This document shows positions 4,927 to 20,023 of a stretch of 64,000 nucleotides of DNA, piece by piece. The notes under the pieces are model-generated. The model was not told the origin of the DNA, did not search any database, and saw only the letters and a program-made list of their open reading frames with translations. Position 1 is the first letter of the stretch. Every line of letters begins with the position of its first letter. The DNA is taken from assembly GCF_025154015.1 (NCBI RefSeq), contig NZ_JAOAMV010000006.1:1-64000 (forward strand), written 5' to 3'. This DNA comes from Tsuneonella litorea. Its GTDB lineage: Bacteria; Pseudomonadota; Alphaproteobacteria; Sphingomonadales; Sphingomonadaceae. The position numbers were made by a program, and so were the translations under genes.

Positions 4927-5105
4927 GGTTTACCGACCCCCTGATGCCCTCAGACATGACCGCGAGGCGCACGTCCGATTGAAACGCGAAGAAAGGCAGA
5001 TGGTTTCCGCGCATCGGCCGCAGCGGCAATCGCCGCAGATGCAGCCGTCACTCGACCGGGCATGGCAGGTCCGAGGCGAACGCGCGCGGGAGACTTCGGG
5101 AAAAC

Positions 5106-5120
5106 TGGTAGCGGAGGAGG
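5106..5120. repeat. attL: Left attachment site (duplicate of tRNA-Met 3' end)
   Basis: TGGTAGCGGAGGAGG, identical to the last 15 nt (including CCA) of the minus-strand tRNA-Met gene at 18634-18648. Identity stops exactly at both edges: C versus A before it, C versus G after it. It marks the left junction of the element, about 180 bp from the kinase start and 190 bp from the integrase. The 4927-5105 stretch between the kinase and this site shows no gene. Confidence 0.85.
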
Positions 5121-5237
5121 CGCTATAACTTTCGTCTCAGGCAATTTCAGAGCGTCTCCAACTACTCTGTAAAATCAGCGATTTATCTTGTAACGTGTTC
5201 GCGGTTGGTCGCCCTGAATCGCCTGAATTCCCGCTGA

Positions 5238-5257
5238 AATGTGGGAACGATTGTGGG
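5238..5257. repeat. Left arm-type integrase site candidate
   Basis: AAATGTGGGAACGATTGTGG, matched at 19 of 20 positions near the other element end (18555-18574). It contains two TGTGG cores 12 bp apart. It lies between attL and the integrase gene, where integrase arm sites normally sit. The rest of 5121-5310 shows no gene. Confidence 0.55.
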
Positions 5258-5295
5258 ACCAAATACCCCCGTTTTTGGTGGTATAACTCCCTGAC

Positions 5296-5308
5296 AGGGA
5301 CTCGAACC
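5296..5308. other. Short tRNA T-loop-like match beside the integrase start
   Basis: AGGGACTCGAACC, identical to the T-arm part of the tRNA-Met gene at 18646-18658. It ends two bases before the integrase ATG. No complete tRNA fold can be made here: the T stem has mismatches and no CCA end follows. It may be part of a larger attP or a decayed tRNA 3' remnant. Confidence 0.35.
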
Positions 5309-5310
5309 TG

Positions 5311-6507
5311 ATGGCGCTGACAGTATTGAAAGTGAAGAACGCGAAGCCCGGTCGCCATGTCGATGGCAGGGGCTTGTGCTTGGTCGTAAAGCCCAGCGGC
5401 GCGCGCACCTGGGTGCTGCGGATGCAGTTGAAAGGCCACCGCCGCGACTATGGGCTGGGGTCGGCGCATGATGTTTCGCTATCCGATGCCAGAACAGCGG
5501 CAGCTGAATTGCGCCGCCGGGTTCGTGACGGCTTCGATCCTGTCGCCGAGCGGCGAAAGGCGCGCAAAGTTATTCCGACCTTCGAAGCGGCGACCCGAAC
5601 CTGCCACGAAGCACTGGGTGACGGGTGGAAGGACGGGCATCATGCCCGATGGTTGTCCGGTTTTGAACGCCACCTCTTTCCACGTATCGGCAAGAAGCCG
5701 GTCGACAAGGTGGACAGCGCCTGCGTGGTCGACGCGTTGTCCCCGATGTGGCTGGAAATACCGGAAACAGCCCGGCGCTTGCTCCAGCGCATCGGCGTAG
5801 TGCTCGATTTCGCGCATGTGAAAGGCTGGGTGCCGGAAGAGGTTTCCTTGCGTTCTGTGCGCAAGGGCTTGCCCCGACAGAACGACAAGCGCGGGCATAT
5901 GGAGGCCATGCCCTATGCCGATGTCCCGTCGCTGATGAAAAAGCTTGCCACCGCCGCACCGACGACCGGACGCGACGCCTTGCGCTTCACGATCTACAAC
6001 GCCGTGCGGTCCAACGAGACGCGCCTTGCGGTATGGACCGAGTTCGATCTCGAAAAAGCGGTATGGACCATACCGGCTGAACGGATGAAGGCGGGCGAAA
6101 CCCATGTGGTGCCGCTTTCGGCACCGGTTGTGGCAATGCTGCGCAAACGCTGGGATGAGCGGACCAGCGACACGGGTTTGGTCTTTTCGAATAATGGCAA
6201 GAAGCCGATCAGCGACATGACCATGACCAAACTGCTGCGCGACGATGGTTTCGCCAGCATCACGGTGCACGGCTTCCGATCTACCTTCACGGACTGGGCC
6301 GCCGAATGCACCGACTTCCCCAAAGAGGTTGCCGACAAGGCATTGGCCCACAAGCTGCCCAACAAGGTTGAAGCCGCTTACCGCCGAACCGATTTCTTCG
6401 AGAAGCGCCGCAGCCTGATGAAGCAATGGGCGGATTATCTGGGCAAAAGCGCCCCGACAGCCAAGAAGGCGGCAGTCGAGCCTAACTCGGCTCCCGCTGC
6501 CGCCTGA
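5311..6507 (+). CDS. int: Tyrosine-type site-specific integrase, P4 family
   Basis: A 398-residue tyrosine recombinase that should catalyse integration and excision of the element at tRNA-Met. The N-terminus (MALTVLKVKNAKPG...) is the DUF4102 arm-binding domain of P4-type island integrases, a SAM-like core-binding domain covers roughly 90-190, and the catalytic domain follows. Catalytic residues are visible: Arg233 (AVRSNETRLAVW), His320 and Arg323 (HGFR), His347 (LAHK) and Tyr357 (AAYRR). The set is intact, so the enzyme may be active. No good ribosome site precedes the ATG, but the N-terminal sequence fits the family start. Its 3' end overlaps the convergent HTH gene by 26 bp. Confidence 0.95.
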   Translation: MALTVLKVKNAKPGRHVDGRGLCLVVKPSGARTWVLRMQLKGHRRDYGLGSAHDVSLSDARTAAAELRRRVRDGFDPVAERRKARKVIPTFEAATRTCHEALGDGWKDGHHARWLSGFERHLFPRIGKKPVDKVDSACVVDALSPMWLEIPETARRLLQRIGVVLDFAHVKGWVPEEVSLRSVRKGLPRQNDKRGHMEAMPYADVPSLMKKLATAAPTTGRDALRFTIYNAVRSNETRLAVWTEFDLEKAVWTIPAERMKAGETHVVPLSAPVVAMLRKRWDERTSDTGLVFSNNGKKPISDMTMTKLLRDDGFASITVHGFRSTFTDWAAECTDFPKEVADKALAHKLPNKVEAAYRRTDFFEKRRSLMKQWADYLGKSAPTAKKAAVEPNSAPAAA

Positions 6508-6676
6508 CCAGTTTGTGCAGACTAGCAGTCGTGATGCGCGTCGATTTGCCAAGCTTGATGGCCTCAATCTCGCCCGACGCAATCAGCTCGTAAAGCTTGG
6601 TGCGACCGACGCCGATCATGCGCGCAGCTTCATTTACCTTCACGCAGATCGGCTCGACCGGCGGCGGCGTGGTCAC
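6482..6676 (-). CDS. Excisionase-family HTH DNA-binding protein
   Basis: A 64-residue protein with a MerR/excisionase-like helix-turn-helix (VNEAARMIGVGRTKLYELIASGEIEAIKLGKSTRI), the HTH_17 pattern. Proteins of this type next to an island integrase usually act as recombination directionality factors or small regulators. It begins with GTG that overlaps the stop of the upstream AlpA-like gene by 4 bp (GTGA), so the two are probably translationally coupled. Its tail is antisense to the integrase tail over 26 bp. Confidence 0.8.
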   Translation of the reverse strand: MTTPPPVEPICVKVNEAARMIGVGRTKLYELIASGEIEAIKLGKSTRITTASLHKLVRRQREPS

Positions 6677-6879
6677 TGCGTCGCGCCCTCATTCCGATAC
6701 GATACCGGATCATCGATCCAGCGGTTCACGGCGGACTCCCGCCAGCCCGCGCCGTGAACGCTGATCTTCACTTGCGACGGGAAAGTCCCCTCGGCAATCT
6801 TGCGATACATGGTGGAGCGGGACAGACCGGTTCGGGCGAGAACGGTCTTGAGACGGATGATCTTGTCAGAGTTGGACAT
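6673..6879 (-). CDS. AlpA-family phage/island transcriptional regulator
   Basis: A 68-residue AlpA-like protein: MSNSDKIIRLKTVLARTGLS, then RSTMYRKIAEGTFPSQVKIS and GWRESAVNRWIDD. AlpA proteins activate integrase expression or act as excisionases in P4-like islands. The frame extends upstream to 7155, but similarity begins at MSNSDK, which has GGAAG 8 bases upstream. It is coupled to the following excisionase-like gene by a 4-bp overlap. Together they probably control excision (inference). Confidence 0.85.
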   Translation of the reverse strand: MSNSDKIIRLKTVLARTGLSRSTMYRKIAEGTFPSQVKISVHGAGWRESAVNRWIDDPVSYRNEGATQ

Positions 6880-7289
6880 GGGACTTGCTTCCATTCGTTG
6901 GCAGTTACTGGTGCCCCCTGATCCAAGAATTTCGCCATGAGGCCTCAAGCGCAACAGAATTCGCGGTCCCTGGCATGGCCATCGCAAAAGCGGATAGAAT
7001 AACTTGCGGAAGGGTAGAGACGGATACGGAAGAGTAGAGAAGCCAACGGACGCAAACACAGGACGACTAGCGGCGATCTTTGTCGCGCCAAATCCGGGCA
7101 CATGCGAAGGCATGTCGGTGCAAGCGAGCCAGCACGACGGATATTTGCTACGCAATGAACGATATTTGCGCCTGAATCATTCGGATTCGGAAACCCTGCT
7201 CCACAACTGCCTCAGCAATTCGTGGAAAGCGCAAGGTCAGGCTGCTAAGCGGGCATCATGCTTTTGCCCGCCCTGCTCCTCCCCGCCGC
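6880..7289. other. 410-bp regulatory interval with two short phased repeats
   Basis: No convincing gene here apart from a possible 11-codon leader at its right end. Two direct repeats stand out: CGGAAGGGTAGAGA / CGGAAGAGTAGAGA at 7007-7020 and 7027-7040 (period 20) and GATATTTGC at 7140-7148 and 7161-7169 (period 21). The spacings are near two helical turns, as for regulator or recombinase half-sites. The interval separates the leftward alpA unit from the rightward RM gene and should hold both promoters. Confidence 0.4.
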
Positions 7290-7293
7290 ATGA
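7258..7293 (+). CDS. Possible 11-residue leader peptide overlapping the RM gene start
   Basis: ATG at 7258 opens [11 protein letters not shown] and stops with a TGA that shares ATGA with the start of the MmeI-like gene at 7290. The RM gene has no clear ribosome site of its own (the bases before it are pyrimidine-rich), so its translation could depend on ribosomes finishing this leader. Upstream there is only a weak purine stretch, AAGCGGG. A chance ORF is possible. Confidence 0.3.
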   Translation: MLLPALLLPAA

Positions 7294-10214
7294 CCCCCGC
7301 CCAATTCATCGCCAAGTGGCGCCATGTCGAACTCAAGGAGCGCTCCGCATCGCAGGAACACTTCCTTGATCTGTGCGAACTGCTCGACATTGAAAAGCCC
7401 GCCAGCGCCGACCCAAAGGGCGAATGGTTCACCTTCGAAAAGGGCGCATCGAAAACCGGCGGCGGTGAAGGCTGGGCCGATGTCTGGCGCAGGCATTGCT
7501 TCGCCTGGGAATACAAAGGCAAGAAGAAGGACCTCGACCGCGCCTTCGCCCAGCTCCAGCAATATGCCATCGCGCTGGATAACCCGCCGCTGCTGATCGT
7601 CAGCGACATGGACCGGTTCCGGATCCACACCAACTGGACCAACACGGTGCAGGAGGTGCGCGAGTTCGCGCTGGACGACCTGCTTGACGGTGCAACCCGC
7701 GATTTGCTGCGTGCCTGCTTCCTCGATCCAGAGCGGCTGAAGCCGGCCAAGACCCGCCAGATGCTGACCGAAGAGGCAGCGGAAGAGTTCTCGCAACTGG
7801 CGCAGCGCCTGCGCGCGCGCGGGCATGATCCCCATTCGGTCGCGCATTTCGTTAACCGGCTCGTGTTCTGCATGTTCGCCGAGGATGTCGGCCTGCTGCC
7901 CGATCACATGTTCACCAAGATGCTGAAGGCCAGCGCCAAGACCCCGGAGCGGTTCGAAGGCAACGCCGCCAAGCTGTTTGCCGCGATGCACAAGGGCGGC
8001 GATCTGGATTTCACCCCCATTGAATGGTTCAACGGCGGGCTGTTCGACGATGACAGCGCCCTGCCGCTGAAACGCGCGGACATCGACAATCTGCTCGCCG
8101 CCGCCGCGCTCGACTGGTCGGAGATTGACCCCTCGATCCTCGGCACGCTGTTCGAACGCGGGCTGGACCCGGACAAGCGCAGCCAGCTCGGCGCGCACTA
8201 TACCGATCGCGACAAGATCATGCAAATCGTCGAGCCGGTCATCATCCGCCCGCTGACGACCGCGTGGGAGGCGGTGCGCGCAGAGATTGAAAGCCTGATC
8301 GCCAGCGCCCCCCGGCAGACGGCGGAAAAGCTGCTGAAAGGGGCCGAGCGGACGAGGCGTGACCGGGCCTTTGCCAAGGCGCAGGAACTGTTGCGCGGCT
8401 TTCTGGAGCGGCTGCGCAATTTCCGCGTGCTCGATCCCGCCTGCGGATCGGGCAATTTCCTCTACCTGTCGCTGCTCGCGCTCAAGGATATCGAGCACCG
8501 CGCCAATCTGGAGGCTGAGGCGCTGGGCTGCACGCGCGAGTTTCCCGCTGTCGGCCCAGAATGCGTGCTGGGGATCGAGCTCAACCCCTATGCCGCCGAA
8601 CTGGCGCGCGTGTCGGTGTGGATCGGCGAAATCCAGTGGATGCGCCGCAACGGGTTTGAGGCGGCCAAGAACCCGATCCTGCGCAGCCTCGGCAATATCG
8701 CAAACCGCGATGCCGTGCTGGTGACGGACGGGCACGGCAATCCGGTGCTGGATGCCGAGGGCAAGCCGCAGCGCGCATCATGGCCCGATGCGGACGTGGT
8801 GGTGGGCAATCCGCCGTTCCTCGGCAACAAGAAGATGATCGGCGAACTGGGCGAGGATTACACCGTCGCGCTGCGCAAGGCATGGCCGCAGGTGCCAGGA
8901 GGGGCTGATCTTGTTTGCTACTGGTTCGCGGGCGCGTGGGACCGGATGGCGGCGGGCCGATTGCACCGCGCCGGGCTGGTCGCCACCAATTCCATTCGCG
9001 GCGGCGCGAACCGCGCAGTGCTCAAGCCCGTGGTGGAGCATGGCCGGATTTTCGAGGCGTGGAGCGACGAGGACTGGACCGTCGAGGGCGCGGCGGTGCG
9101 GGTGTCGCTGGTGTGCTTCGAGCGCGAGGCTGGCGCGGGAGCGGCGCTGCTGGATGGTCTCGAAGTTGCGCGGGTCCATGCTGACCTGTCTGGGGGCGGC
9201 TCTGGTGTTGATCTCACTAAATCAACGCGGCTACCGCAGAACCAGTCAGTCTGCTTTGAGGGGCTTAAGAAATACGGCGACTTTGAGGTTCCGGGCGAAG
9301 TAGCTCGCAGATGGTTGCAGCTTCCCCGCAATGTAAATGGCCTATCAAATTCCCATGTCCTAGCCCCTTGGGTCATCGCAATCGACATAGTCCGCCGTCC
9401 ACTTGATCGTTGGGTGGTCGATTTTGAAGACGCCCTGAGCCTGGCTGAAGCGGCCTGCTTTGAAGCCCCTTTCGCCCACGTTGAAGCTAACGTGAAACCA
9501 ACCCGCGCCAAGGATCGCAACACGCGAACGAGGGACTTCTGGTGGAGGTTCGAGCGAAGCCGTCCCGAGTTGCGGGTGCGTCTAACTGGTCTCAAGCGCT
9601 ACATCGCGACACCGGTCGTGGCGAAACATCGCATATTTTCATGGGTGCCTAGTTCGGCTCTGCCCTCTAATCTGCTGGACGCCATCGCCCGCGACGACGA
9701 CACCACCTTCGGCATCCTGCACAGCCACTTCCACGAGGTCTGGTCGCTGCGCATGGGCACCTCGCTGGAGGACCGACCGCGCTACACCCCTTCGACCACC
9801 TTCGAAACCTTCCCCTTCCCCGAAGGCCTGACGCCCGACATTCCCGCCGCCGACTATGCCGCTGACCCGCGCGCGCAGGCCATCGCCGCTGCCGCCGAGC
9901 GGCTCAACACCTTGCGCGAAAACTGGCTGAACCCGCCCGATCTGGTCGAGCGCGTGCCCGAAGTCGTCCCCGGCTATCCCGACCGCATCCTGCCACAGGA
10001 CGAAGCCGCCGCGCAGGAACTGAAGAAGCGCACGCTCACCAACCTCTACAATGCCCGCCCCGCCTGGCTCGATCACGCCCACCGCGCATTGGATGAAGCG
10101 GTCGCCGATGCCTATGGCTGGGGCGAAGACTACCGCGCCGGCACCCTGACCGACGACGAAGTGCTCGCCCGGCTGTTCCGCCTCAACCAGCAGCGCGCGG
10201 GGCCAGCAAGATGA
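7290..10214 (+). CDS. MmeI-like (type IIL) restriction endonuclease-DNA methyltransferase
   Basis: A 974-residue single-chain RM protein of the MmeI family, which cleaves unmodified DNA at a distance and methylates adenine on one strand of its site. N-terminal PD-(D/E)XK nuclease: Asp64-x9-Glu74-Tyr-Lys76 (in FAWEYKGK), the exact D-x9-ExK spacing of MmeI. A helical spacer follows, then a gamma-class N6-adenine methyltransferase with motif I ([10 protein letters not shown], from about 381) and motif IV NPPF (Asn507). A target-recognition region (about 637-790, including [17 protein letters not shown]) and a C-terminal helical part complete it. The TRD stretch (about 9200-9660) is visibly AT-richer than the flanks, consistent with specificity exchange. 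It overlaps the convergent ynfA by 32 bp. Its role is element-borne defence or retention. Confidence 0.93.
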
Positions 10215-10524
10215 TCGCCGCGCCGCCGAGGCACACCGCCCCGCCCAGCACATCCCACCGGTCTGGCCGTGCGCCTTCCGCCAGCCACTGCCAGCACAGC
10301 GCGGACAGGATATAGACCCCGCCATAGGCAGCATAGGCACGCCCGGCATAGTCGCTTTCCACCAGCGTCAGCAGCCAGGCAAACAGCGCCAGCGATGCCA
10401 TGCCGGGGATCAGCCACCACACCGGCTTGTCAAGCCGCAGCCAGGCCCAGAAGGCAAAGCAGCCAGCAATCTCCGCCACGGCAGCACCAAGGTAGACCAG
10501 CAGGGAAAGAACGTTGGGCTGCAA
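10183..10524 (-). CDS. ynfA: YnfA/UPF0060 family small membrane protein
   Basis: A small integral membrane protein of about 108-113 residues with four predicted membrane helices. Family hallmarks: [38 protein letters not shown] and a C-terminal [18 protein letters not shown]. YnfA proteins are DMT-like small transporters linked to multidrug or cation tolerance; the exact substrate is not established. No ATG lies at the expected position. A TTG at 10522-10524 ([13 protein letters not shown]) gives a normal length; the reading frame further upstream is unrelated. It overlaps the MmeI-like gene tail-to-tail by 32 bp. Confidence 0.8.
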
Positions 10525-10596
10525 GGCGATTCCAGACCGGATGACAAGTAGAGGCGTCTGCCGGTATGCCGACCCGCAGAGTTCGTGCAAGCATGA

Positions 10597-10683
10597 TCGC
10601 CCTTGCCCCGGCGCACCCGATGCTGGAAGGCGCTGGGACTGGTGCTCGTGGTCGCGGGGTTGAAGATGATCGGTTTTTACTGA
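10597..10683 (+). pseudogene. Possible C-terminal remnant of a membrane protein
   Basis: A short frame without a start, bounded upstream by a stop at 10594-10596, reads ...[20 protein letters not shown] and then stops. It looks like the last transmembrane helix and end of a lost transporter. The family cannot be identified from this length. It lies between ynfA and crcB in the transporter cargo and fits a deletion scar. Confidence 0.25.
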
Positions 10684-10758
10684 TGCGAATGATAAGGCGC
10701 GGCATGCTGACACTGCCGTGTTACCGCTGCAATTGGACATGCTTGACGGGATGATGTC

Positions 10759-11139
10759 ATGATCCGCCATACGCTCATTGTATTTCTGGGTGCAGGGCTT
10801 GGCGGTGCGCTCCGCCATCTGGCGAACTTCGCAATAACGCGCGCCCTTGGCTCGACTTTTCCGTCAGGCATCCTTGCGGTGAACATCGTCGGATGTTTCG
10901 CCATGGGGGCCATCATCGGCTGGTTCGCCCTGCGCCATGATCCGGGGCAAGACTGGCGATTGTTCCTGACGACGGGATTTCTGGGCGGTTTCACGACCTT
11001 TTCCGCTTTCGCGCTCGACAGCGCGACGCTGTGGGAACGTGGAGCCGAAGGCAGCGCGGCGGCCTATGTCCTTGTCTCGGTGATCGGCTCGCTCGTCGCC
11101 GTGGGCGCGGGGCTGGCGCTGGTGCGCAGCCTGTCGTGA
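10759..11139 (+). CDS. crcB: Fluoride exporter CrcB/Fluc
   Basis: A 126-residue four-helix CrcB protein that should dimerise in the inner membrane and export fluoride. Family motifs: [29 protein letters not shown] and [17 protein letters not shown], which carries the pore phenylalanines and the central sodium-binding turn. Length is typical. It is convergent with the corA pair (34 bp gap). I looked for a crcB-motif fluoride riboswitch in the 75 bp upstream and could not match the consensus. Confidence 0.93.
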
Positions 11140-11172
11140 CGCTGGGTGGGCGGATATCGGCCGTACTGGCCC

Positions 11173-12141
11173 TTAAAGCCAGCCCCGCCGCTTGAAGTAG
11201 AAGAATGGCAGCAAGACCGAGATTACCATCAGCCCAAGCGCAAAAGGGTAGCCCATCGGCCACTTGAGTTCAGGCATGAATTCGAAGTTCATGCCGTAGA
11301 TCGAGGCTACCAGTGTGGGTGGCAGAAAGACCACCGCGGCGACCGAGAAAATCTTGATGATGCCATTCTGTTCGATGTTGATCATGCCCAGCGTGGCGTC
11401 GAGCAGGAAGTTGATTTTCTGAGACAGAAAAGCATCGTGATCCGCCAGCGAGCGGATATCCCGTGCGATAGTCTTCATCCGCTCGCGGATGTCCTTGCGG
11501 CTCTTGCGCTGTAGCAGCAGCGTTGTGGCGAAGGTGCAAAGGCGCTCCAGCGAGACCAGGCTGTCGCGCACATTGGAGACGGCATTGGCGTGCCGGCCAA
11601 GATTGGCGAGGACCCTGCCAAAATCCTGCGGCACACGGGAATGGATATCGGTCTTGGCGAAAACCGTCTTGGACACGCCTTCGATTTCCTTGCCGTATCG
11701 TTCGAGGATATCAGCCAGGCGATCAACAATCGCTTCAAGCAACTGGACGAAAACCTCTTCACCATCGCTGGCGATTGCAAGGCCGCGATCGGAGCGCTGG
11801 AGCATCAGCGAGAAGACGCGTGGTTCGTGATGGCGCAAAGTGACCAGCGATTTGGCCGACAGGACAAAGGTAACGGGTGCCATCTCGGGCTCCTCCGAGT
11901 CACCGAAGGCAGGCAATATGGCGGTCATGAACGCCGTTGAACCCTCAAGATAGAGACGCGAGGAGATTTCGATCTCCTCCATCTCTTCCCGGTCAGGAAT
12001 CTCGACGCCGAGCCAACGATTAATCTCCCGCTCTTCCTCTGCAGTCGGGCGCAGGAGGTCGATCCATGTCGCCTCGGTCTGGGGGTCCAGACTTGCCGCA
12101 ACAGAGCGCAATCTGCCGCCTTGGCTTTCGAAAATATGCAT
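11173..12141 (-). CDS. corA: CorA-family magnesium/divalent cation transporter (copy 1)
   Basis: A 322-residue CorA protein: a soluble N-terminal funnel domain, long coiled helices (about 130-250), then two C-terminal membrane helices with the signature YGMNFEFMPEL between them and the basic tail FKRRGWL. The GMN motif and MPEL loop indicate Mg2+/Co2+ selectivity rather than ZntB-type efflux. It lies 45 bp downstream of a second corA on the same strand and is probably cotranscribed with it. Its partner is clearly diverged, so this is not a recent duplication. Confidence 0.93.
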   Translation of the reverse strand: MHIFESQGGRLRSVAASLDPQTEATWIDLLRPTAEEEREINRWLGVEIPDREEMEEIEISSRLYLEGSTAFMTAILPAFGDSEEPEMAPVTFVLSAKSLVTLRHHEPRVFSLMLQRSDRGLAIASDGEEVFVQLLEAIVDRLADILERYGKEIEGVSKTVFAKTDIHSRVPQDFGRVLANLGRHANAVSNVRDSLVSLERLCTFATTLLLQRKSRKDIRERMKTIARDIRSLADHDAFLSQKINFLLDATLGMINIEQNGIIKIFSVAAVVFLPPTLVASIYGMNFEFMPELKWPMGYPFALGLMVISVLLPFFYFKRRGWL

Positions 12142-12186
12142 TGCACTACCTATTCCGATTGAGTGCCCGAACAGCGTTGGGCAGGC

Positions 12187-13158
12187 CTATAGCCAGCCGG
12201 ATTTCTTGAAGCGTACGAATAGCACGAGGCAGATCGCCGCAATCACGCCCAGCACCACGAAATAGGCGTATTCCATGCGCAGCTCCGGCATATTGTCGAA
12301 ATTCATGCCGTAAATTCCTGCAATGGCTGTGGGAACGGCAAGGATTGCCGCCCACGAGGCCAGCTTGCGGGTGATGTCGCCTTGACGCTGCTGTTCGATA
12401 AGGGCGCTTGTTTCCATCACCGAGTTGAGCATTTCCCGATGGAGAGCCGCAAGCGAGGCAACCCGCCGCACGTGGTCAAGCACGTCACGGAAATAGGGGC
12501 GAACCTCGGCATCGATATTGGGCAAATCGAGGGTCGCAAGCTTGGCGCAAACATCCTCCATCGGGATCAGCATCCGCTGAAGCAGTAACAGGTCGCGGCG
12601 CAGATTGAACAATTCGCGCATCTCGGCCCGGGTCAACGCGGACTCCAGCGCGCTTTGTTCGAGCCTGCCGACGATTTCACCGGCCGCGTCGATGACCGGG
12701 AAGTAATTGTCAGCGATGAGATCGAGCACCGCGTGCAATACGTAGTCAACGCCATGCGCCAGTAGCGAAGGTCGGGACTCCAGCTTGGTGCGCAAGCCGG
12801 AATGGCCCTGATCGGAACCGTGCCGAACGGTCACGATATGGTTGGAACCCACGAATATGGCCGTCTCGCCATAAGCGATCTTCCCTTCCGCCATTTTCGC
12901 CGTGCGCACCACAATGAACAGCTGGTCGCCATAGATTTCCAGCTTCGGCAGCTGATGCGCGTGCAAGGCATCTTCGACCGCCAGCGGATGAAGGCTGAAT
13001 GCGCTCGCGCAGGCGCTAAGTTCCTCGGCGGTGGGCTCGAACAGACCTACCCAGCTGAAAGCGTCCGGAGTCTCTTTGTGCGTTGCCTGGCCGATATTGT
13101 CAGGCAAGTCCCCGGCAGGGTGACCCGCCTTGTACTCACGCGCCGCAATGATTGCCAT
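12187..13158 (-). CDS. corA: CorA-family magnesium/divalent cation transporter (copy 2)
   Basis: A 323-residue CorA paralogue ending in two membrane helices with YGMNFDNMPEL and the tail FKKSGWL. The frame is open further upstream, but the start MAIIAAREYK has AGGAGG 7 bases before it. Its first 23 bp overlap the end of the preceding methyltransferase gene, implying one transcript methyltransferase-corA-corA. Two diverged CorA proteins could form separate pentamers with different ion preference (inference). Confidence 0.93.
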   Translation of the reverse strand: MAIIAAREYKAGHPAGDLPDNIGQATHKETPDAFSWVGLFEPTAEELSACASAFSLHPLAVEDALHAHQLPKLEIYGDQLFIVVRTAKMAEGKIAYGETAIFVGSNHIVTVRHGSDQGHSGLRTKLESRPSLLAHGVDYVLHAVLDLIADNYFPVIDAAGEIVGRLEQSALESALTRAEMRELFNLRRDLLLLQRMLIPMEDVCAKLATLDLPNIDAEVRPYFRDVLDHVRRVASLAALHREMLNSVMETSALIEQQRQGDITRKLASWAAILAVPTAIAGIYGMNFDNMPELRMEYAYFVVLGVIAAICLVLFVRFKKSGWL

Positions 13159-13900
13159 CGGCACTCCTCCTGCCCACCAGCAGCCCTTTGGCTCCCCCGC
13201 CCTCGAAAAGAAAATCGAAATCTTTCCATCTCTTGCGCCACCGCCGCGCAATAACCCGTTCTCCCGGCCGTGCGGCGTCATCGAGCATGATCGCGCCGCC
13301 GGGAGTGATCCGATCAAACAGGCGCTCGGCCATGCCCCTTGCAAAGGGATGCACCGCCCATGGCGGTCCATCGATCACCAGCAAATCGATCCGGGGGGGC
13401 AGATGGGAAAGCGCATACCAGAGACCCGGCCATGCGGCATCGCGGAGGGTGAGCGGGGCGTAATGAAACGCGGCTGACAACCCGTTCTCGTCAAGCCACG
13501 CATCCATCTGTCTCACGAAAGGCTCGTGCTGGTCGTAGCTGTGCAAACTGCCGCCGCCGTGCAGCAAGAGCGCCTTGGCGATGACCAGCGACGTCGCCCC
13601 CGAACCCAGTTCAACAACCACAGCTGGCTTGCGCGCCTCGATTTCATCGACAATCCGGTGAAGCAGATAGGTATCCGCCTTCCAGCTTCCGAGGTGCGGC
13701 AAGGCGTCGAGTTCCAGTTCGACCCGTTCGAGAAGGGCGCGCTTTTCAGCTTGCGTGCCGCCGTAAAGGCTCTTGAGCAACCAGGGCCACTGAACGAGCG
13801 CAAAACCGATTTGGAACAGCCTTTCACCGAACGTTCGTGTAGCGCTCCCATGGTCTGAAAGGTCTTTGGCCAGCAGGCCCGTGAGATGTTTTGAGGTCAA
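13136..13900 (-). CDS. Class I SAM-dependent methyltransferase (Methyltransf_24-like)
   Basis: A 254-residue protein with a Rossmann-fold methyltransferase core: motif I VVELGSGATSLVIAKAL, then LHSYDQHEPF, LLVIDGPPW and a later GGAIMLDDAAR, as in O-methyltransferase/FkbM-like small-molecule enzymes. The substrate is unknown. The only available start is a TTG (13898-13900) with a weak ribosome site. Its end overlaps the start of corA copy 2 by 23 bp, so it heads the cation-transport operon. Confidence 0.7.
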   Translation of the reverse strand: MTSKHLTGLLAKDLSDHGSATRTFGERLFQIGFALVQWPWLLKSLYGGTQAEKRALLERVELELDALPHLGSWKADTYLLHRIVDEIEARKPAVVVELGSGATSLVIAKALLLHGGGSLHSYDQHEPFVRQMDAWLDENGLSAAFHYAPLTLRDAAWPGLWYALSHLPPRIDLLVIDGPPWAVHPFARGMAERLFDRITPGGAIMLDDAARPGERVIARRWRKRWKDFDFLFEGGGAKGLLVGRRSADGNHCGA

Positions 13901-14069
13901 CGTATATCAGCCTGATTGAATTGGGTGGTCGGCGTTGCGGTAGCGAAGCCTTGTTGCGATTGCGAACAGAAAAGGGTCGGCGGTCAGCAGGCGAATGCCG
14001 TTCATGCAAACGGATGGGATGTTACTCTATTGCCGGGTCACGGCTTGTGCACCATTGGGTAACATCGAG

Positions 14070-14375
14070 TCAGTCCTGCTGCGTTCGAACTTTTGCTTCC
14101 GCCTCAAACGCCCGCTTCCCCTTACGCTTCCACAGCACCAGCGCCTGTTCACGATCATCGCCGCGCATTTTGGCCGCGACGGTGAGGAACGCGCCGTAGA
14201 GCGTGGCGCGATCATCATCGGCCAGTTCGACCAGCCCGGCCTTCACCACCAAGCCGCCCAGTTCGATCAGTTGCCGCGTGCGTTCGCGGCGTTTGACCTG
14301 CCATTCGCGCATGTCGGTTCGCGCCTTTGCCGCCTCAAGCCGATGCCGCGCCGCCGTCAAGCGGGAGAGTGCCAT
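14070..14375 (-). CDS. traD: Conjugal transfer protein TraD (Ti-type, PF06412-like)
   Basis: A 101-residue basic protein containing REWQVKRRERTRQLIELGGLVVKAGL and DDRATLYGAFL, the core of the small Ti-plasmid-type TraD family, which is unrelated to F TraD. It is probably a relaxosome accessory. The ATG at 14375 has AAGG upstream and lies 5 bp after the traC stop. An upstream ATG at 14396 (MDLKASRM) would overlap traC by 17 bp. The C-terminus is lysine-rich. The 13901-14069 gap before the methyltransferase gene shows nothing clear. Confidence 0.85.
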   Translation of the reverse strand: MALSRLTAARHRLEAAKARTDMREWQVKRRERTRQLIELGGLVVKAGLVELADDDRATLYGAFLTVAAKMRGDDREQALVLWKRKGKRAFEAEAKVRTQQD

Positions 14376-14379
14376 CCGG

Positions 14380-14640
14380 CTAGCCTTGAGGTCCATCGCC
14401 ACGCTTGCGCGCCTTGCTCTGAAAGAAGGCCGCGCCCCGCTTGCGCCACGCTTCCTTCCGTTGGGCTTCGCTGTTTTCCGCAATAACCAGCAGCGCACCG
14501 GCCAACGTTTCCGCATCGGTTGCATCGGCCCCTGTGGCGATCACCAGTTCGCCGAGTTGCTGCACGCGGCGTTCCTTCAGTTGCTTCGCCTTGTCGGCGA
14601 GCGCCTTCAGTTCCGAATCAAAGTCGCGGGGTTTGCGCAT
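14380..14640 (-). CDS. traC: Conjugal transfer protein TraC (Ti-type)
   Basis: An 86-residue protein beginning MRKPRDFDSELKALADKAKQ, with VQQLGELVIATGADATDAETLAGALL and a basic end AAFFQSKARKR. This is the TraC-like relaxosome accessory found beside Ti/sphingomonad TraA relaxases. GGAGA lies at the right distance before the ATG. It is divergent from traA; the intergenic region carries the oriT candidate, the same arrangement as traC/traA of Agrobacterium plasmids. Confidence 0.87.
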   Translation of the reverse strand: MRKPRDFDSELKALADKAKQLKERRVQQLGELVIATGADATDAETLAGALLVIAENSEAQRKEAWRKRGAAFFQSKARKRGDGPQG

Positions 14641-14756
14641 CGAAGTTCTCCATTGAGAGGTGATGCGCTGATGATAATATCGATGCTCCGCCAATGCTGT
14701 AGAGTCGTCGAGACGGCCTGATACTGGATAGTCCCGAGCAGGATTTTATCATGGGA

Positions 14757-14783
14757 GGGCGCGCTTATACGTCGTGCCGACGT
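14757..14783. other. oriT: Candidate origin of transfer (oriT) with nick-type motif
   Basis: Between divergent traC and traA lies GGGCGCGCTTATACGTCG, directly followed by the other half of an inverted repeat ACGTCG-TGC-CGACGT (14769-14783). From memory it resembles the Ti/RSF1010-type nic region (GGGCGCAATTATACGTCG). Position, symmetry and motif agree with the MOBQ relaxase encoded alongside. The nick position is not determined here. Confidence 0.65.
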
Positions 14784-14812
14784 GGCGCTCATGGCGTAGA
14801 TGGATTGCCGTC

Positions 14813-17698
14813 ATGGCGATCTTCCATCTCTCCGTCAAAGTCATCAGCCGGTCGAGCGGACGCAGCGCCGTGGCCGCCGCAGCCTATCGCACGGCCGAAC
14901 GGCTGCACGATGACCGGCTCGACCGCGACCATGATTTCACCAACAAGGACGGTGTCGTCCATTCCGAGGTGATGTTGCCGGAAGGCGCGCCCGAAGAGTT
15001 CGCCGACCGCGAGAAGCTTTGGAATGCGGTCGAGGCCGCCGAGAAGCGCAAGGATGCGCAGCTTGCCCGCGAGGTCGAATTCGCCATTCCGCGCGAGCTG
15101 ACCAAGGAACAGGGCATTGAACTGGCGCGGGAGTTTGCCGAGGCCGAGTTCGTCGAAAAGGGCATGATCGCCGACCTCAATGTCCACTGGGATATTGGCG
15201 CGGACGGCCAGCCCAAGCCCCACGCGCACGTCATGCTCACCATGCGCGAGGTGGGCAAAGATGGCTTCGGCCCGAAGGTGCGCGAGTGGAACAAGGCCGA
15301 ACTGGTCGAGCAGTGGCGCGAACGCTGGGCCGATCATGTCAATCAACGCCTGGCCGAACTCGATATCGATGCGCGGATCGATCACCGCAGCCTGGAGGCG
15401 CAGGGCATTGCGCTGGAACCGCAGGACAAGATCGGCCCCGCCGCGTCGCGCATGGGGGTGCGCGGACTTGAGGCTGAACGGATCGAGGAACACCGCGCCG
15501 TCGCGCAACGCAATGGCGAGCGGATCATCGCAAATCCCGCGCTCGCCCTCGACGCGATCACGCACAGCCAGGCCACCTTCACGAACCGCGACCTTGCCAT
15601 GTTCGTGCACCGGCACAGCGACGGGAAAGAGCAGTTCGATCTGGCGATGAGCGCGGTGCGCGGCTCGCCTGATATGATTGCGCTGGGCAAGGACGGACGC
15701 GGCGAGGACCGGTTCACCTCGCGCCAGATGATCGAGACCGAACAGCGGCTTGGCCGCGCATCGGAATTGCTCGCGGGGCGCGAGCGGCATGGCCTCGATC
15801 AACGAGGCCGGGAAGGTGCGCTGGCGCGCGCGGCGGAGCGCGGGCTGGCGCTATCCGGCGAGCAGCGCGCGGCGTTCGAGCATGTGACCGATAGTCGCGG
15901 CCTCAGCGTTGTTGTCGGCTATGCCGGGACCGGCAAAAGCGCGATGCTGGGCGTGGCGCGCGAAGCCTGGGAAAGCGCTGGCTATACCATTCGCGGTGCC
16001 GCCCTTTCCGGCATTGCCGCCGAGGGACTGGAGCACGGTTCGGGCATTGCCTCGCGCACCATTGCCAGCCTTGAACATCAGTGGGGCCAGGGCCGCGAAT
16101 TGCTCACCTCGCGCGACGTGCTGGTCATCGACGAGGCAGGCATGGTCGGCACGCGCCAGATGGAGCGCGTCCTCTCCCATGCCGCCGATGCAGGCGCAAA
16201 AGTGGTGCTGGTTGGCGACTCGCAGCAGCTCCAGGCCATCGAAGCCGGGGCCGCCTTCCGCGCGATCCATGAACGGCACGGCGGCGTCGAAATCAGCGAA
16301 GTGCGCCGTCAGCACGAAGGCTGGCAGCAGGATGCCACACGGCACCTTGCCACCGGGCGCACCGGCCTTGCCATTCAGGCCTATGGCGAACGCGCCATGG
16401 TCCACACCGCCGAGACGCGGGAGGCAGCGCGTGGCGAGCTGATCGAGCGTTGGAATCGCGACCGCCAGGCCAGTCCCGGCGATACGCGGATCATCCTCAC
16501 CCACATCAATGACGAGGTGCGCGAACTCAATGACGCGGCGCGTGGTAGGCTGCGCGCCAGTGGTGAACTAGGCAACGACGTGGCCATCCGTGCCGAGCGG
16601 GGCGAGCGTCATTTCGCCAGCGGCGACCGCATCATGTTCCTGCGCAATGAGCGGGGTATGGGCGTCAAGAATGGCACACTCGGTACTGTAGAACAGGTGA
16701 CGCCGCAGCGCATGGTGGTCCGCACCGACGATGGTCGCAGTGTCGCCTTCGACACCAAGGATTATGCGCACATCGATCACGGCTATGCAGCGACGATCCA
16801 CAAGGCGCAGGGGATGACGGTGGACCGCGCCCATGTGCTGGCGACGCCGGGCATGGACAGCCACGGTGCCTATGTGGCGATGTCCCGCCACCGTGACGGC
16901 CTTGCCCTGCATTATGGCCGCGACGACTTCGCCGATCAGTCGAAACTGGTCCGCACTCTAAGCCGCGAGCGCGGCAAGGACATGGCCGGCGACTACAAAC
17001 CGGAGCAGCAGTTCGCCGAGCGGCGCGGCATTACCTTCCGCGAACGTATCGTGGAAATCGCCCGTCAGCTGCCGGAGCGCGCGAAGTCGATCTTCGCCGG
17101 TTTCCGCCCGCAGGCCAACCGGCTCGAAGCGCTGCCAAGAGATCAGGCTGGCCTTCCCGATCAGCGCCGGGCGGTCGAACGCTATGCCCGTGCCGCCGCA
17201 GACATCGGACAAATGCGCGAACAGGGATTGCCCGTCCTGCCCCACCAGCGCGACGCGCTGGAGAAGGCCGGGAAGGCGCTCGATGCGATAAGGCCCCATG
17301 GCGCAGCCGACCTCGCCAGCGCCTTGCAGCGCCAGCCCTCGCTGGCCCGCGAGGCCGCCGATGGTCGCAGTCAGGGTGCAATCCGCGCCATGCAGCTTGA
17401 AGCCGAAATCCGCGTCGATCCCGCGCAGCGTGCAGACCGCTTTGTCAGCGACTGGCAACGGCTCGGGCAGGCACGACAGGCCATGCAGCGCGATGGTGAC
17501 ACCAAGGGCGCGCAGAAGCTTACCAACCACATGACGGACATGGCGAAGGGGCTGGAGCGCGACGCGCAGGTTGAATCCCTTCTGCGCAGCCGCACCCGCG
17601 AGCTTGGCATCAAGACAGAACTCGGTCGCGATCTGGCCCGCGATCTTGGCGCTTCCATCTCAATGGAGCGGAGCCGGTCAATCGGCATGGGCCTGTAG
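14813..17698 (+). CDS. traA: Ti-type conjugative relaxase-helicase TraA (MOBQ)
   Basis: A 961-residue protein that should nick oriT, stay linked to the strand through a tyrosine, and unwind DNA for transfer. The N-terminal MobA/MobL relaxase starts MAIFHLSVKV, has the likely catalytic Tyr25 (AAAAYR) and the metal-binding histidines His125, His137 and His139 (PHAHVML). An SF1/RecD-like helicase follows, with Walker A GYAGTGKS (369-376), Walker B VLVIDEAGM (from 436), VLVGDSQQLQ and a late UvrD-C-like part (GYAATIHKAQGMTVD). A helical C-terminus follows. The upstream frame extension carries the oriT and is unlikely to be coding. Its TAG stop is part of the ribosome site of the next gene. Confidence 0.95.
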   Translation: MAIFHLSVKVISRSSGRSAVAAAAYRTAERLHDDRLDRDHDFTNKDGVVHSEVMLPEGAPEEFADREKLWNAVEAAEKRKDAQLAREVEFAIPRELTKEQGIELAREFAEAEFVEKGMIADLNVHWDIGADGQPKPHAHVMLTMREVGKDGFGPKVREWNKAELVEQWRERWADHVNQRLAELDIDARIDHRSLEAQGIALEPQDKIGPAASRMGVRGLEAERIEEHRAVAQRNGERIIANPALALDAITHSQATFTNRDLAMFVHRHSDGKEQFDLAMSAVRGSPDMIALGKDGRGEDRFTSRQMIETEQRLGRASELLAGRERHGLDQRGREGALARAAERGLALSGEQRAAFEHVTDSRGLSVVVGYAGTGKSAMLGVAREAWESAGYTIRGAALSGIAAEGLEHGSGIASRTIASLEHQWGQGRELLTSRDVLVIDEAGMVGTRQMERVLSHAADAGAKVVLVGDSQQLQAIEAGAAFRAIHERHGGVEISEVRRQHEGWQQDATRHLATGRTGLAIQAYGERAMVHTAETREAARGELIERWNRDRQASPGDTRIILTHINDEVRELNDAARGRLRASGELGNDVAIRAERGERHFASGDRIMFLRNERGMGVKNGTLGTVEQVTPQRMVVRTDDGRSVAFDTKDYAHIDHGYAATIHKAQGMTVDRAHVLATPGMDSHGAYVAMSRHRDGLALHYGRDDFADQSKLVRTLSRERGKDMAGDYKPEQQFAERRGITFRERIVEIARQLPERAKSIFAGFRPQANRLEALPRDQAGLPDQRRAVERYARAAADIGQMREQGLPVLPHQRDALEKAGKALDAIRPHGAADLASALQRQPSLAREAADGRSQGAIRAMQLEAEIRVDPAQRADRFVSDWQRLGQARQAMQRDGDTKGAQKLTNHMTDMAKGLERDAQVESLLRSRTRELGIKTELGRDLARDLGASISMERSRSIGMGL

Positions 17699-17708
17699 GA
17701 GAAATGCG

Positions 17709-18533
17709 ATGGATACCGATACGGATGACGTGGAACTGCCACTTGACCTTGAGCCGGAACCCGAACCCGAACCCGACCCAGCCACCCCGGATACCGCTGG
17801 CGATCCCGCCGCCGAGGCGTTTGCCCGCCTTGAGGGCGAGTTGGCCCTGATGCGCCGGGCGGTCCAGCACCTTGCCGCCGAGCGTGCAGACATTGTCATT
17901 CCCGACTACGGTGCGACCCTCACCGACATAACAAAGCGGATGGGCGCGATTAGCGAGAGCCTGCAGGCCATGGCTGGCCATCCGGCGATGCAGTTGACCC
18001 CCGACAGCATCGGCCAGCGGATTGCAGCCGCAGCCGAGGCAGCGCGGCGCTGCGATCAGGACAGGATCACTCAGGCCCGAAGTGACTTGAACCACGCCGC
18101 CCAGGAGATGCGCAGCGTCACGGCCCATGCGCGCACCGCCGCCGAACAGCGGCAGCAGCTCTACCAGTTAGCAGGCGGGGCTTTGCTGGCTGGCATCATG
18201 CTATGGTCCTTCCTTCCCGGCACCATTGCTCGCGCGATGCCGGAAAGCTGGCACTGGCCAGAGCGTATGGCGGCGCGGATCGTGAGCGCACCCTCACGCT
18301 GGGATGCAGGCGCGCGGCTGATGCAGAGCGACAACCCCGAAGCCTGGAATGCACTAGCGCAGGCGGCTGAGATCCAGCGCGACAACCGCGATACCATCGA
18401 TGCTTGCCGCCAGAGCGCTGCATCTTCCAAGCGGCCGGTGCGATGCACCGTCAAGATTCGTCAAAGCAGTCAAGAAGGAGAAACAGCCGCAACGCCAGTG
18501 GGGGCCGCGCAACGATCCTACAGAGGAGCATAA
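17709..18533 (+). CDS. DUF6118 family protein (TraA-associated membrane protein)
   Basis: A 274-residue protein of the family commonly found directly after sphingomonad TraA. It has an acidic proline-rich N-terminus (repeated EPEP), a helical stretch (about 35-150) and one membrane helix (about 158-178: LYQLAGGALLAGIMLWSFLPG), then a C-terminal soluble part. AGGAG precedes the ATG, 10 bp after traA, so the two are cotranscribed. Its role is unknown; a membrane-linked mobilization accessory is a reasonable guess from context. The family name is by recollection of sequence style. Confidence 0.75.
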   Translation: MDTDTDDVELPLDLEPEPEPEPDPATPDTAGDPAAEAFARLEGELALMRRAVQHLAAERADIVIPDYGATLTDITKRMGAISESLQAMAGHPAMQLTPDSIGQRIAAAAEAARRCDQDRITQARSDLNHAAQEMRSVTAHARTAAEQRQQLYQLAGGALLAGIMLWSFLPGTIARAMPESWHWPERMAARIVSAPSRWDAGARLMQSDNPEAWNALAQAAEIQRDNRDTIDACRQSAASSKRPVRCTVKIRQSSQEGETAATPVGAAQRSYRGA

Positions 18534-18554
18534 CAGCCCATTCCGACCCGCACA

Positions 18555-18574
18555 AAATGTGGGAACGAATGTGG
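18555..18574. repeat. Right arm-type integrase site candidate
   Basis: AAATGTGGGAACGAATGTGG, in the same orientation as the copy at 5238-5257 with one mismatch. It lies 60 bp inside the right attachment site. The rest of 18534-18633 is AT-richer and shows no gene, as expected for an integrase/IHF binding arm. Confidence 0.55.
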
Positions 18575-18633
18575 TTTCGATTCTCCGAAAAAGTCATTTT
18601 ATCCTTTGAAAACAAAGCGATAAATGACTTGAA

Positions 18634-18648
18634 TGGTAGCGGAGGAGG
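18634..18648. repeat. attR: Right attachment site inside tRNA-Met
   Basis: TGGTAGCGGAGGAGG, the 3' terminal 15 nt of the tRNA-Met gene read on the plus strand and identical to 5106-5120. The integrated element leaves the tRNA intact, typical of tRNA-targeted islands. Confidence 0.85.
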
Positions 18649-18710
18649 GACTCGAACCCCCGACACGCGGATTATGATTCCGCTGCTCTAACCGGCTGAG
18701 CTACTCCGCC
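18634..18710 (-). tRNA. tRNA-Met (CAT), elongator type
   Basis: A complete 77-nt cloverleaf with encoded CCA: acceptor GGCGGAG/CTCCGCT, D arm GCTCAGCCGGTTAGAGC, anticodon loop ATCATAA with anticodon CAT between GCGGA/TCCGC, and T arm GGGGG-TTCGAGT-CCCTC. The G1-U72 pair and overall match to alphaproteobacterial elongator tRNA-Met argue against initiator tRNA. A lysidine-type tRNA-Ile also reads CAT and is the alternative. It is the integration target of the neighbouring element. Confidence 0.93.
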
Positions 18711-18778
18711 CCAAGGGCTGGCCTGGCGTCATTCGGGCGCGAGGCAGGCGGCGCCTTTAGGGCCGGCTCCGCGCCGGG

Positions 18779-19471
18779 TCAACCGGGCAAATGACCCGGC
18801 GAACCGGCCGAGCCACGGGTGGCCGCTGCCTCGTTCATCCGGCGGATCTTGGCGGCAAGGGCGCGGTTGAGCGCGCTGTCGAAAGCGGCGCCGATCTCGG
18901 GTGCGACCTCGGCCATCTGGGCGAGCGCGACCCGGTCGACCTCGGCGATGCGCATCGGGTTGGTCACCACGACGGCGGTCGACGCCGGCTCCCCGGTCGC
19001 CACGCTCATGTCGCCGAGAAAATCGCCTTCGCCCGCCACCCCCACCAGGCGTCCGTCGAGTTCGATCCCGGCCGCGCCCGACGCGATGTAGATCAGCGGC
19101 GGATGCGGCTGGCCCTGGCGGATCAGCACCTCTCCCGGCTCCGCATCGCGCCAGGTGAGCAGGCCGATCAGCCGCCGCTGGCGCGCCGGATCCTCGACGC
19201 GCAAGATGTCTTCCAGAAGTGCGCGCTCCTCGGCACGCATCGCGCCGATCCGCCGGCGCCGGGCCGCCAGCGCCAGCTGCGCCCCGTTCGCGGCAACGAA
19301 CACCGCCGCCCAGGCCACCAGGGCGCCCGCGCCTCCGTTGACGAGCCCCCACCCGAGCGCGGCGATGCCCGCCGCGATCGCGAACAACCGCACGCCACGC
19401 AGCGAGCGCATCGCGGCCGAGCCGACGAGCAGCGCGGCGGCCAGGTGGAACAGCAGGTCGCCGGTTTCCAT
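18779..19471 (-). CDS. Popeye-like membrane protein with cyclic-nucleotide-binding domain
   Basis: A 230-residue protein. Three hydrophobic segments cover about residues 5-75 (LLFHLAAALLVGSAAM, LFAIAAGIAALGWGLV, ALVAWAAVFVAANGAQLAL). A cNMP-binding domain follows, with GEVLIRQGQPHPPLIYIASG and EGDFLGDMSVATGEPASTAVVV. Three helices plus a cAMP-type domain is the Popeye (POPDC) layout. The usual phosphate-binding GE...RAA signature is altered (GDMSVATGEPAS), so the ligand is uncertain. A GAGGG site precedes the ATG. It follows the 2H phosphoesterase gene on the same strand by 15 bp. Confidence 0.8.
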   Translation of the reverse strand: METGDLLFHLAAALLVGSAAMRSLRGVRLFAIAAGIAALGWGLVNGGAGALVAWAAVFVAANGAQLALAARRRRIGAMRAEERALLEDILRVEDPARQRRLIGLLTWRDAEPGEVLIRQGQPHPPLIYIASGAAGIELDGRLVGVAGEGDFLGDMSVATGEPASTAVVVTNPMRIAEVDRVALAQMAEVAPEIGAAFDSALNRALAAKIRRMNEAAATRGSAGSPGHLPG

Positions 19472-19486
19472 GTGCGAGCCCTCTTC

Positions 19487-20023
19487 TTAGCCCTTCGTGC
19501 GGTGACTACCCCGAAACGGCCAGCGATGCACGGCCTCCCACGGTCCCCCGCGATAGCGGTGCAGCGCAAGCCCGGCGAATGCAAATTCTCGCGGTTCGAT
19601 CGCCGGCGCAAGCGCGGCCTGGAGCGCCTTGGCCACCGAGGGCGCGACCTTGTTCTGGATCGTCACGTGGAGCCGCGGAACCTGCTGGTCCTGCGGGGTC
19701 AGGAGTCCGTGAAACCGGCTCGCGAGGCGCTCGCGCAGGTCGAGCATCGCCGGGCTCGACAGCCGCAGCGCTGTGCCCCGGCCGAGGTTCATCAGGCCTT
19801 CGAGCCGAGCGCGAACGGGCGCCGCCCGCGCCTCGGCTGCAAGCGCGTCCCGAAGTTCGCCTTCCACCATCGGCGGGAGCGCGTGGAACAGGGTGACGTG
19901 GGCCTTCAGGTGATTGCGCTCGGGCGGGAAATGCGCCGCACGCAGCTGGTCGGCGCGCGATTGCAGCGCCTCGGGCAGTTCGGCGGTGACGATCAGCGGG
20001 GCGAGATCACCGCCGGGGTTCAA
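19487..20023 (-). CDS. 2H phosphoesterase / 2'-5' RNA ligase family protein
   Basis: About 178 residues with the two H-x-T motifs of the 2H superfamily: HVTLFHALP and HVTIQNK, in the usual ligT/ThpR-like spacing. Such enzymes act on 2',3'-cyclic phosphates of RNA or on small cyclic phosphodiesters; the substrate here is unknown. A TTG start at 20021-20023 shares TTGA with the mltG stop and has GGGGAG 5 bases upstream, so I prefer it to the upstream ATG at 20059, which would run far into mltG. Confidence 0.75.
   Translation of the reverse strand: MNPGGDLAPLIVTAELPEALQSRADQLRAAHFPPERNHLKAHVTLFHALPPMVEGELRDALAAEARAAPVRARLEGLMNLGRGTALRLSSPAMLDLRERLASRFHGLLTPQDQQVPRLHVTIQNKVAPSVAKALQAALAPAIEPREFAFAGLALHRYRGGPWEAVHRWPFRGSHRTKG

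Follow-up and report, generated by a model that had tools for sequence, protein, structure and literature searches.

Sequence comparison indicates that the 13,543-bp region at positions 5106–18648 of the window (the whole 64-kb stretch of Tsuneonella litorea DNA analyzed here) is very probably a complete integrative and mobilizable element (IME) whose mobilization module is of the Ti-like traACD type. From left to right it consists of a 15-bp core, a TGTGGGA-containing leader, genes for an integrase, an AlpA-family regulator, a type IIG restriction enzyme, YnfA, CrcB, two CorA proteins, a methyltransferase, and TraD/TraC, a candidate oriT, genes for TraA and a DUF6118 protein, and the second core within tRNA-Met. 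The comparison shows its exact ends, the empty site of one of its sister elements, and, in a relative, a likely helper.

Boundaries of the element

The IME is bounded by the exact 15-bp repeat TGGTAGCGGAGGAGG, which a sequence-only reading of this DNA had placed at both ends and which was confirmed at 5106–5120 and 18634–18648 (both on the plus strand). These are the only two copies within the 64 kb, where no third was found at up to two mismatches; about 0.0003 chance exact matches are expected from base composition, and 0 of 100 shuffles contained two. The left copy, the attL core, duplicates the tRNA-Met 3′ end; the right copy, the attR core, is that 3′ end itself, including its CCA, in the target gene, an intact predicted tRNA-Met(CAT) (18634–18710, minus strand). 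Two TGTGGGA repeats in the left leader (5237–5258, plus strand) are candidate arm-type integrase sites and are also found in the left ends of relatives; they recur close to the right end, where another candidate arm-type site (18555–18574, plus strand) matches the left copy at 19 of 20 positions.

DNA alignments of genomes G043, G123, G131, and G230 and of plasmid pYT40 to the window begin exactly at base 5106, and that of G274 begins 7 bases before it. Across six elements, each from a different genus, the inner ends match completely or almost completely (for pYT40, the left end only). Outside the left end the DNA of the sister elements cannot be aligned to that of the window; G131 and pYT40 share theirs. 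The earlier proposal that the repeats are attL and attR, marking exact ends, is thus borne out by where the relatives' alignments start and by the agreement of the inner ends. As shown by comparison, the IME sits between two copies of the 15-bp tRNA-Met 3′ end with the tRNA kept intact, and by sequence it has, as an IME would, its own site-specific integrase and attL/attR pair.

Bare copies of the 15-bp repeat do exist without an IME of this family, at the ends of other elements. Copies of the tRNA-Met 3′ end measuring 45–66 bp lie away from the tRNA in three genus relatives (G008, G004, and G005; loci L043, L044, and L045), which suggests other islands at the same gene. Just past tRNA-Met, at 18779–19471, lies a gene for a cyclic-nucleotide-binding, POPDC-like protein.

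Integrase and cargo

The tyrosine integrase (5311–6507, plus strand; Pfam Arm-DNA-bind_3, Phage_int_M, and Phage_integrase) begins 190 bp inside the left core, at the end away from tRNA-Met, and the relaxase module occupies the tRNA end. An alignment of 70 integrases, that of the window included, shows near-invariance (at least 98%) of residues R233, K260, H320, R323, H347, and Y357, which we take to be the catalytic R-K-H-R-H-Y set; the enzyme therefore looks intact, as had been claimed. The AlpA-family regulator (6673–6879, minus strand; Phage_AlpA, 4e-15; start chosen by reading) is likely the excision directionality factor. In P4-type tRNA islands the integrase is typically adjacent to the tRNA. 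The element is like such islands, as they are generally understood, in its Arm-DNA-bind_3 tyrosine integrase, AlpA, and tRNA 3′-end core, but its integrase starts at 5311 and the tRNA at 18634.

The largest cargo gene encodes a MmeI-like type IIG restriction-methyltransferase (7290–10214, plus strand; Pfam MmeI domains; PADLOC REase_MTase_IIG, 1065 bits). Matches to the MmeI N-terminal, helicase-spacer, methyltransferase, TRD, and, weakly, C-terminal models predict the fused nuclease, methyltransferase, and recognition domains of a type IIG enzyme. It is followed by genes for a YnfA/UPF0060 membrane protein (10183–10509, minus strand; approximate start), a CrcB fluoride channel (10759–11139, plus strand; profile matches), a CorA-family transporter (11173–12141, minus strand; profile matches), a second CorA-family transporter (12187–13158, minus strand; Pfam CorA; start by reading), whose NCBIfam corA score of 198.8 is just below the cut-off of 200.75, and a Methyltransf_24 methyltransferase (13136–13900, minus strand; profile match). 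No fluoride or other riboswitch was found by crcB in a search of 4500–19500 at E ≤ 1, which returned only the tRNA and a sub-threshold match on its opposite strand. The cargo may provide DNA restriction and perhaps tolerance of fluoride or metal ions.

Mobilization module

The right part of the element encodes the relaxosome protein TraD (14070–14396, minus strand; PF06412, 7.6e-23; start by reading), a TraC-like relaxosome protein (14380–14640, minus strand; a reading frame with tblastn matches in sister loci), and, in the opposite direction, the MobQ relaxase-helicase TraA (14813–17698, plus strand; MobA_MobL, 5.8e-76; start by reading). TraA scores 1624 bits against NF010464 (above its cut-off), 266.5 against the MobQ model NF041496 (cut-off 200), and 939 against TIGR02768 (cut-off 590), and so passes the curated MobQ and TraA_Ti cut-offs. 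Directly after traA lies the gene for a DUF6118 protein (17709–18533, plus strand; profile match; start by reading), which follows traA in the same order on two sphingomonad plasmids; none of the papers listed in a literature search contained the term DUF6118.

The candidate oriT, GGGAGGGCGCGCTTATACGTCGTGCCGACGT (14740–14800, plus strand), lies between the divergent traC and traA and is conserved in sister elements and plasmids. Its conserved block, GCGCGCTTATACGTCG followed, after at most one extra T, by TGCCGACGT, sits between traC and traA and occurs in the window, five sister genomes, and three plasmids, one of them from Mesorhizobium; the last bases vary in some other members, e.g., TTCCGACGT in L122, L126, and L128. 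A loose search pattern for the block also matched scattered unrelated sites. The element would accordingly have a relaxase and an oriT of its own, with traA divergent from traC-traD around an oriT that is called Ti-like by comparison with the Mesorhizobium plasmid. Among 71 related loci, which reach at most 11.3 kb to the right, TraA lies right of the integrase in 23 (22 in the orientation of the window) and was not seen in 48, many of them incomplete.

Genes for a mating pore are missing from the element: Pfam scans of its open reading frames gave no type IV secretion system (T4SS) family, and models for VirB4 (PF03135) and the coupling protein (PF02534), run on the whole genome, matched only on contigs C28 and C31 and not on that of the window (C29). 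This supports the earlier reading of the element as an IME without TraG or T4SS genes, which would need a helper.

Sister elements

Among the 397 genomes in this family group, 196 have an integrase match at E ≤ 1e-60, and integrases 93–94% identical to that of the window are found in four other genomes, all of other genera. The left-end signature is present in eight of the 397 family genomes, the window's included (backward-pattern control, 0), and members of the element family come from records bearing the names Erythrobacter, Novosphingobium, Sphingobium, and others. The six elements compared range from 9,804 to 19,944 bp. Two parts are conserved, from 5106 to ~6900–7060 (int-alpA) and from ~14100 to 18651 (traD/traC-oriT-traA-DUF6118). 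The cargo between them is unlike that of the window in the sisters except for G043, which has the type IIG gene (88%; the only other of the six to have it) and a stretch of CorA and methyltransferase genes (72%); G131 and G123 have another large protein in common. In G043 the left and right IME modules and the type IIG gene are 88–90% identical to those of the window, and the chromosomal right flank is 70–77% identical. Cargo appears to be exchanged between conserved end modules.

A whole tRNA-Met stands at the end of four of the six elements (window, G131, G043, and G274). At the end of the G123 element the core adjoins a short tRNA-like piece, and the G230 element ends at a bare core, which means that the tRNA gene is not the target in every case; G230 has a tRNA-Met on another contig, beside a different flank.

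In a plasmid search 57 records matched, each over less than 80% of the element. Long matches involve the mobilization module or, in pYT40, int-alpA, and shorter ones fall in the cargo; all matches above 90% identity are shorter than 100 bp. Plasmid pYT40 (L046) carries a left end of this type of IME next to the flank also seen in G131, with an IS6100-flanked tet(G)/floR further in and no second core found within the 37-kb locus.

The empty site

The sequence-only reading predicted that relatives lacking the element would join its left flank directly to tRNA-Met. Such a junction was found for a sister element, L153 of Erythrobacteraceae bacterium E2-1, and none was found for the window's own kinase flank. 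The 1-kb left flank of L153 matched 60 of 397 genomes searched (E ≤ 1e-8). Of the best 25 places, 24 have the flank followed by tRNA-Met at the core, and the other, in G043, is occupied by the IME; nine of the 24 are 98–100% identical and the others 69–90%. Judged from these alignments, the junctions are the empty site for L153. The flank itself forms the terminus of a different element with its own integrase (integrase, toprim, Strawberry-notch helicase, and ParB), so the IME appears to have inserted between that resident element and the tRNA.

This other tRNA-Met element (L153:1–9796 and L196–L204; integrase, toprim/DUF7146, Strawberry-notch helicase, and, in L153, ParB) has a tRNA-side 1 kb that is 98–100% identical in nine genomes with seven genus codes, which points to very recent spread; G365, which bears this end, has no VirB4 match. 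The nine include L204, in which a partial extra core lies directly before the core of an intact tRNA-Met, perhaps the scar of a past integration.

For the window, none of the genus relatives joins the kinase flank to tRNA-Met (11 genomes, G000 and 10 relatives). The DNA adjoining tRNA-Met differs among species of the genus; some pairs share outer blocks, none of which is the left flank of the window. Among the kinase-region matches listed for 377 family genomes, only the window's own reached the core, and 11 kinase-region loci of other genomes had no tRNA within flanks of ~1.5 kb. In G010 a 51-bp core copy is followed by apparent moaA/moeA genes and then by the LysR/aldehyde-dehydrogenase genes of the window's left edge. 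A search with the left flank of G043 in three genomes of its genus gave no empty site.

Core sequence and integrase phylogeny

Of 79 named relative loci, 71 were labelled by core; L180–L187 (partial or <50% identical) were left out of labels and tree, and two of these, L180 and L181, show the Met core. The labels are Met (26), Arg (19), Glu (18), and Leu (5), with three loci lacking a tRNA label ('x' and 'alt'). Met and Arg were assigned from ARAGORN predictions in relatives and Glu by reading the adjacent tRNA in L130; the Leu label is presumptive. A tree of 72 integrases, in which near-identical copies ease clustering, explains the labels with 6 changes, against a minimum of 5 and a mean of 37.4 after shuffling (none of 200 shuffles gave so few). 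One fully supported group contains all 27 Met rows plus a single unlabelled row. Core sequence (Met, Arg, and others) thus seems to follow integrase phylogeny. For Erythrobacter integrative and conjugative elements (ICEs), clustering of integrases by tRNA site was reported previously, in the available text of PMC4919336.

Helper systems and transfer

Excision of the window's IME would begin with the integrase recombining the two cores, AlpA favoring this direction, to give a 13,528-bp circle. TraC and TraD would bind oriT and TraA would nick it; a conjugative element in the same cell, either a Trb/TraG ICE like the one found in tandem in G131 or a VirB-type system, would supply the coupling protein and mating pore that receive the strand, and the circle would then re-integrate at a tRNA-Met core.

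Directly next to its IME of this family, G131 has a 47.8-kb ICE (358147–405914; L244, L245, L107, and L077) bounded by the same core; the order is ICE, IME, tRNA, with three core copies. The ICE encodes TrbI, VirB9, VirB8, TrbL, part of VirB4/TrbE, TraG, ArdC, ParB, a DUF3363/relaxase protein, and an integrase. With TraA, TraC, and TraD in the IME and TraG and the pore in the ICE, the pair could complement each other, and the ICE is a plausible helper for IMEs of this family. Plasmid pSYA3-1, which has the same TraA-DUF6118 module, is typed in PLSDB as conjugative MPF_T, so a VirB route may also be open. Searches of the window's genome found a single VirB4, part of a VirB cluster on C28, and a single coupling protein, TrwB-like, on C31. 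According to the available text of PMC4919336, all strains of that study had a T4SS copy that co-evolved with their genomes, and the C28 cluster may, by analogy, be of this type. Beside the TrwB-like protein are apparently two integrases and a MobF relaxase (L104; G000:C31:60000–79900), perhaps a second mobilizable element in the same genome.

Three other explanations bear on whether the element is real and how it moves. That a chance repeat adjoins an unrelated integrase, with the real ends elsewhere, could be argued from the short core, 15 bp as against mostly 35–66 bp for the tRNA-Met 3′ copies in genus relatives; with homology starting exactly at 5106 in five sequences (two with a common flank) and both inner ends conserved, this is extremely improbable and is refuted as far as sequence can refute it. 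A stranded island, which entered as an IME and no longer moves for want of a compatible helper, is unlikely but deserves more weight. No Trb/TraG-type system was found in the window's genome, so the element may be stranded now; no circular attP junction was detected in 377 genomes (up to three mismatches) or, as an exact match, in the viral contigs searched; and the C28 cluster, if it is the co-evolved T4SS of PMC4919336 as that source's available text describes it, is perhaps not a conjugation pore. Yet both cores, the integrase, alpA, oriT, and traA look intact, the 93–94% identical integrases lie in four other genera, and the same TraA-DUF6118 module is carried by a plasmid typed conjugative MPF_T.

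The element might also travel mainly within an ICE-IME tandem that excises between the outermost cores, rather than alone. This is less likely still, even though G131 has the ICE-IME-tRNA order with three cores, pYT40 has the same outer flank and integrase, and, of 31 Met-core flanks at least 1.5 kb long, 8 have a related integrase in the same direction no more than 200 bp beyond the left end (L112, L116, L132, L153, L170, G131, G043, and pYT40). In 22 of the 31 flanks, the window's included (L113 and G230 being a single record entered twice), there is no such integrase within 3 kb, and no second core lies left of the window's element, in a contig that begins at window base 1. In G123 the outer integrase points the opposite way, 679 bp off. 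The flank survey did not support an initial reading of the L121 flank as the end of an element with such an integrase. A complete IME moved by a helper remains the preferred reading.

Relation to known elements and significance

The closest described elements are in Mesorhizobium, where the available text of PMC8627217 reports a divergent, Ti-like traACD locus in 25 IMEs, whose integration sites include tRNA-Met and tRNA-Arg, in a genus that also has Trb ICEs. The window's element shares with IMEMl R88B and its relatives the divergent traA versus traC/traD around oriT and the integration at a tRNA; host order and cargo differ, and TraA, MobQ by the models used here, is counted as MOBF in that survey. 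IMEs without traACD carried a T4CP (PMC8627217, available text), which we read as implying that those with traACD lack one; no coupling protein was found in the window's element either. In those elements a putative RDF gene lies downstream of traA, whereas in the window AlpA is beside the integrase and DUF6118 follows traA; the element is therefore likened to the IMEMl R88B group and not filed in it.

Erythrobacter ICEs at tRNA-Met-CAT share with it the target gene, the bacterial group, and integrase clustering by tRNA site; they differ in being ICEs, with the integrase just after the tRNA rather than at the far end (PMC4919336, available text). Plasmids NC_008036 of S. alaskensis and pSYA3-1 of S. 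yanoikuyae have the same traA-traD-traD-DUF6118 order and oriT block, with 77% DNA identity over 3.4 kb in NC_008036, but are plasmid records. Tandem ICE-IME structures at tRNA genes are described in a review (PMC5704250), in the available text of which the example is S. agalactiae; the relatives' IME between a resident element and the tRNA resembles these in its shared target core, and the window itself has no tandem. A sphingomonad plasmid has been described as an IME, without tra genes as far as the available text goes (PMC3516476). Among the titles listed in a literature search, which is no proof of absence, there was no sphingomonad IME with this mobilization module. Since Mesorhizobium traACD IMEs and ICE-IME tandems are published, the element is best seen as a new lineage of a known kind.

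More broadly, it is an even call whether these elements are a lineage of small traACD IMEs within the Sphingomonadales in which integrase and core have diverged, switching the tRNA target repeatedly, and in which the ends and the mobilization module have stayed similar. Some members would parasitize Trb/TraG ICEs with the same 15-bp core and might travel in tandem with them. If so, the ICE helper and the hitch-hiking IME would share one address. For this precisely delimited element family the ends are known, sites both occupied and empty have been found, and there is an oriT candidate as well as, in a relative, a candidate helper, which makes the choice of tRNA target, its switching, and the sharing of an address with ICEs directly testable.
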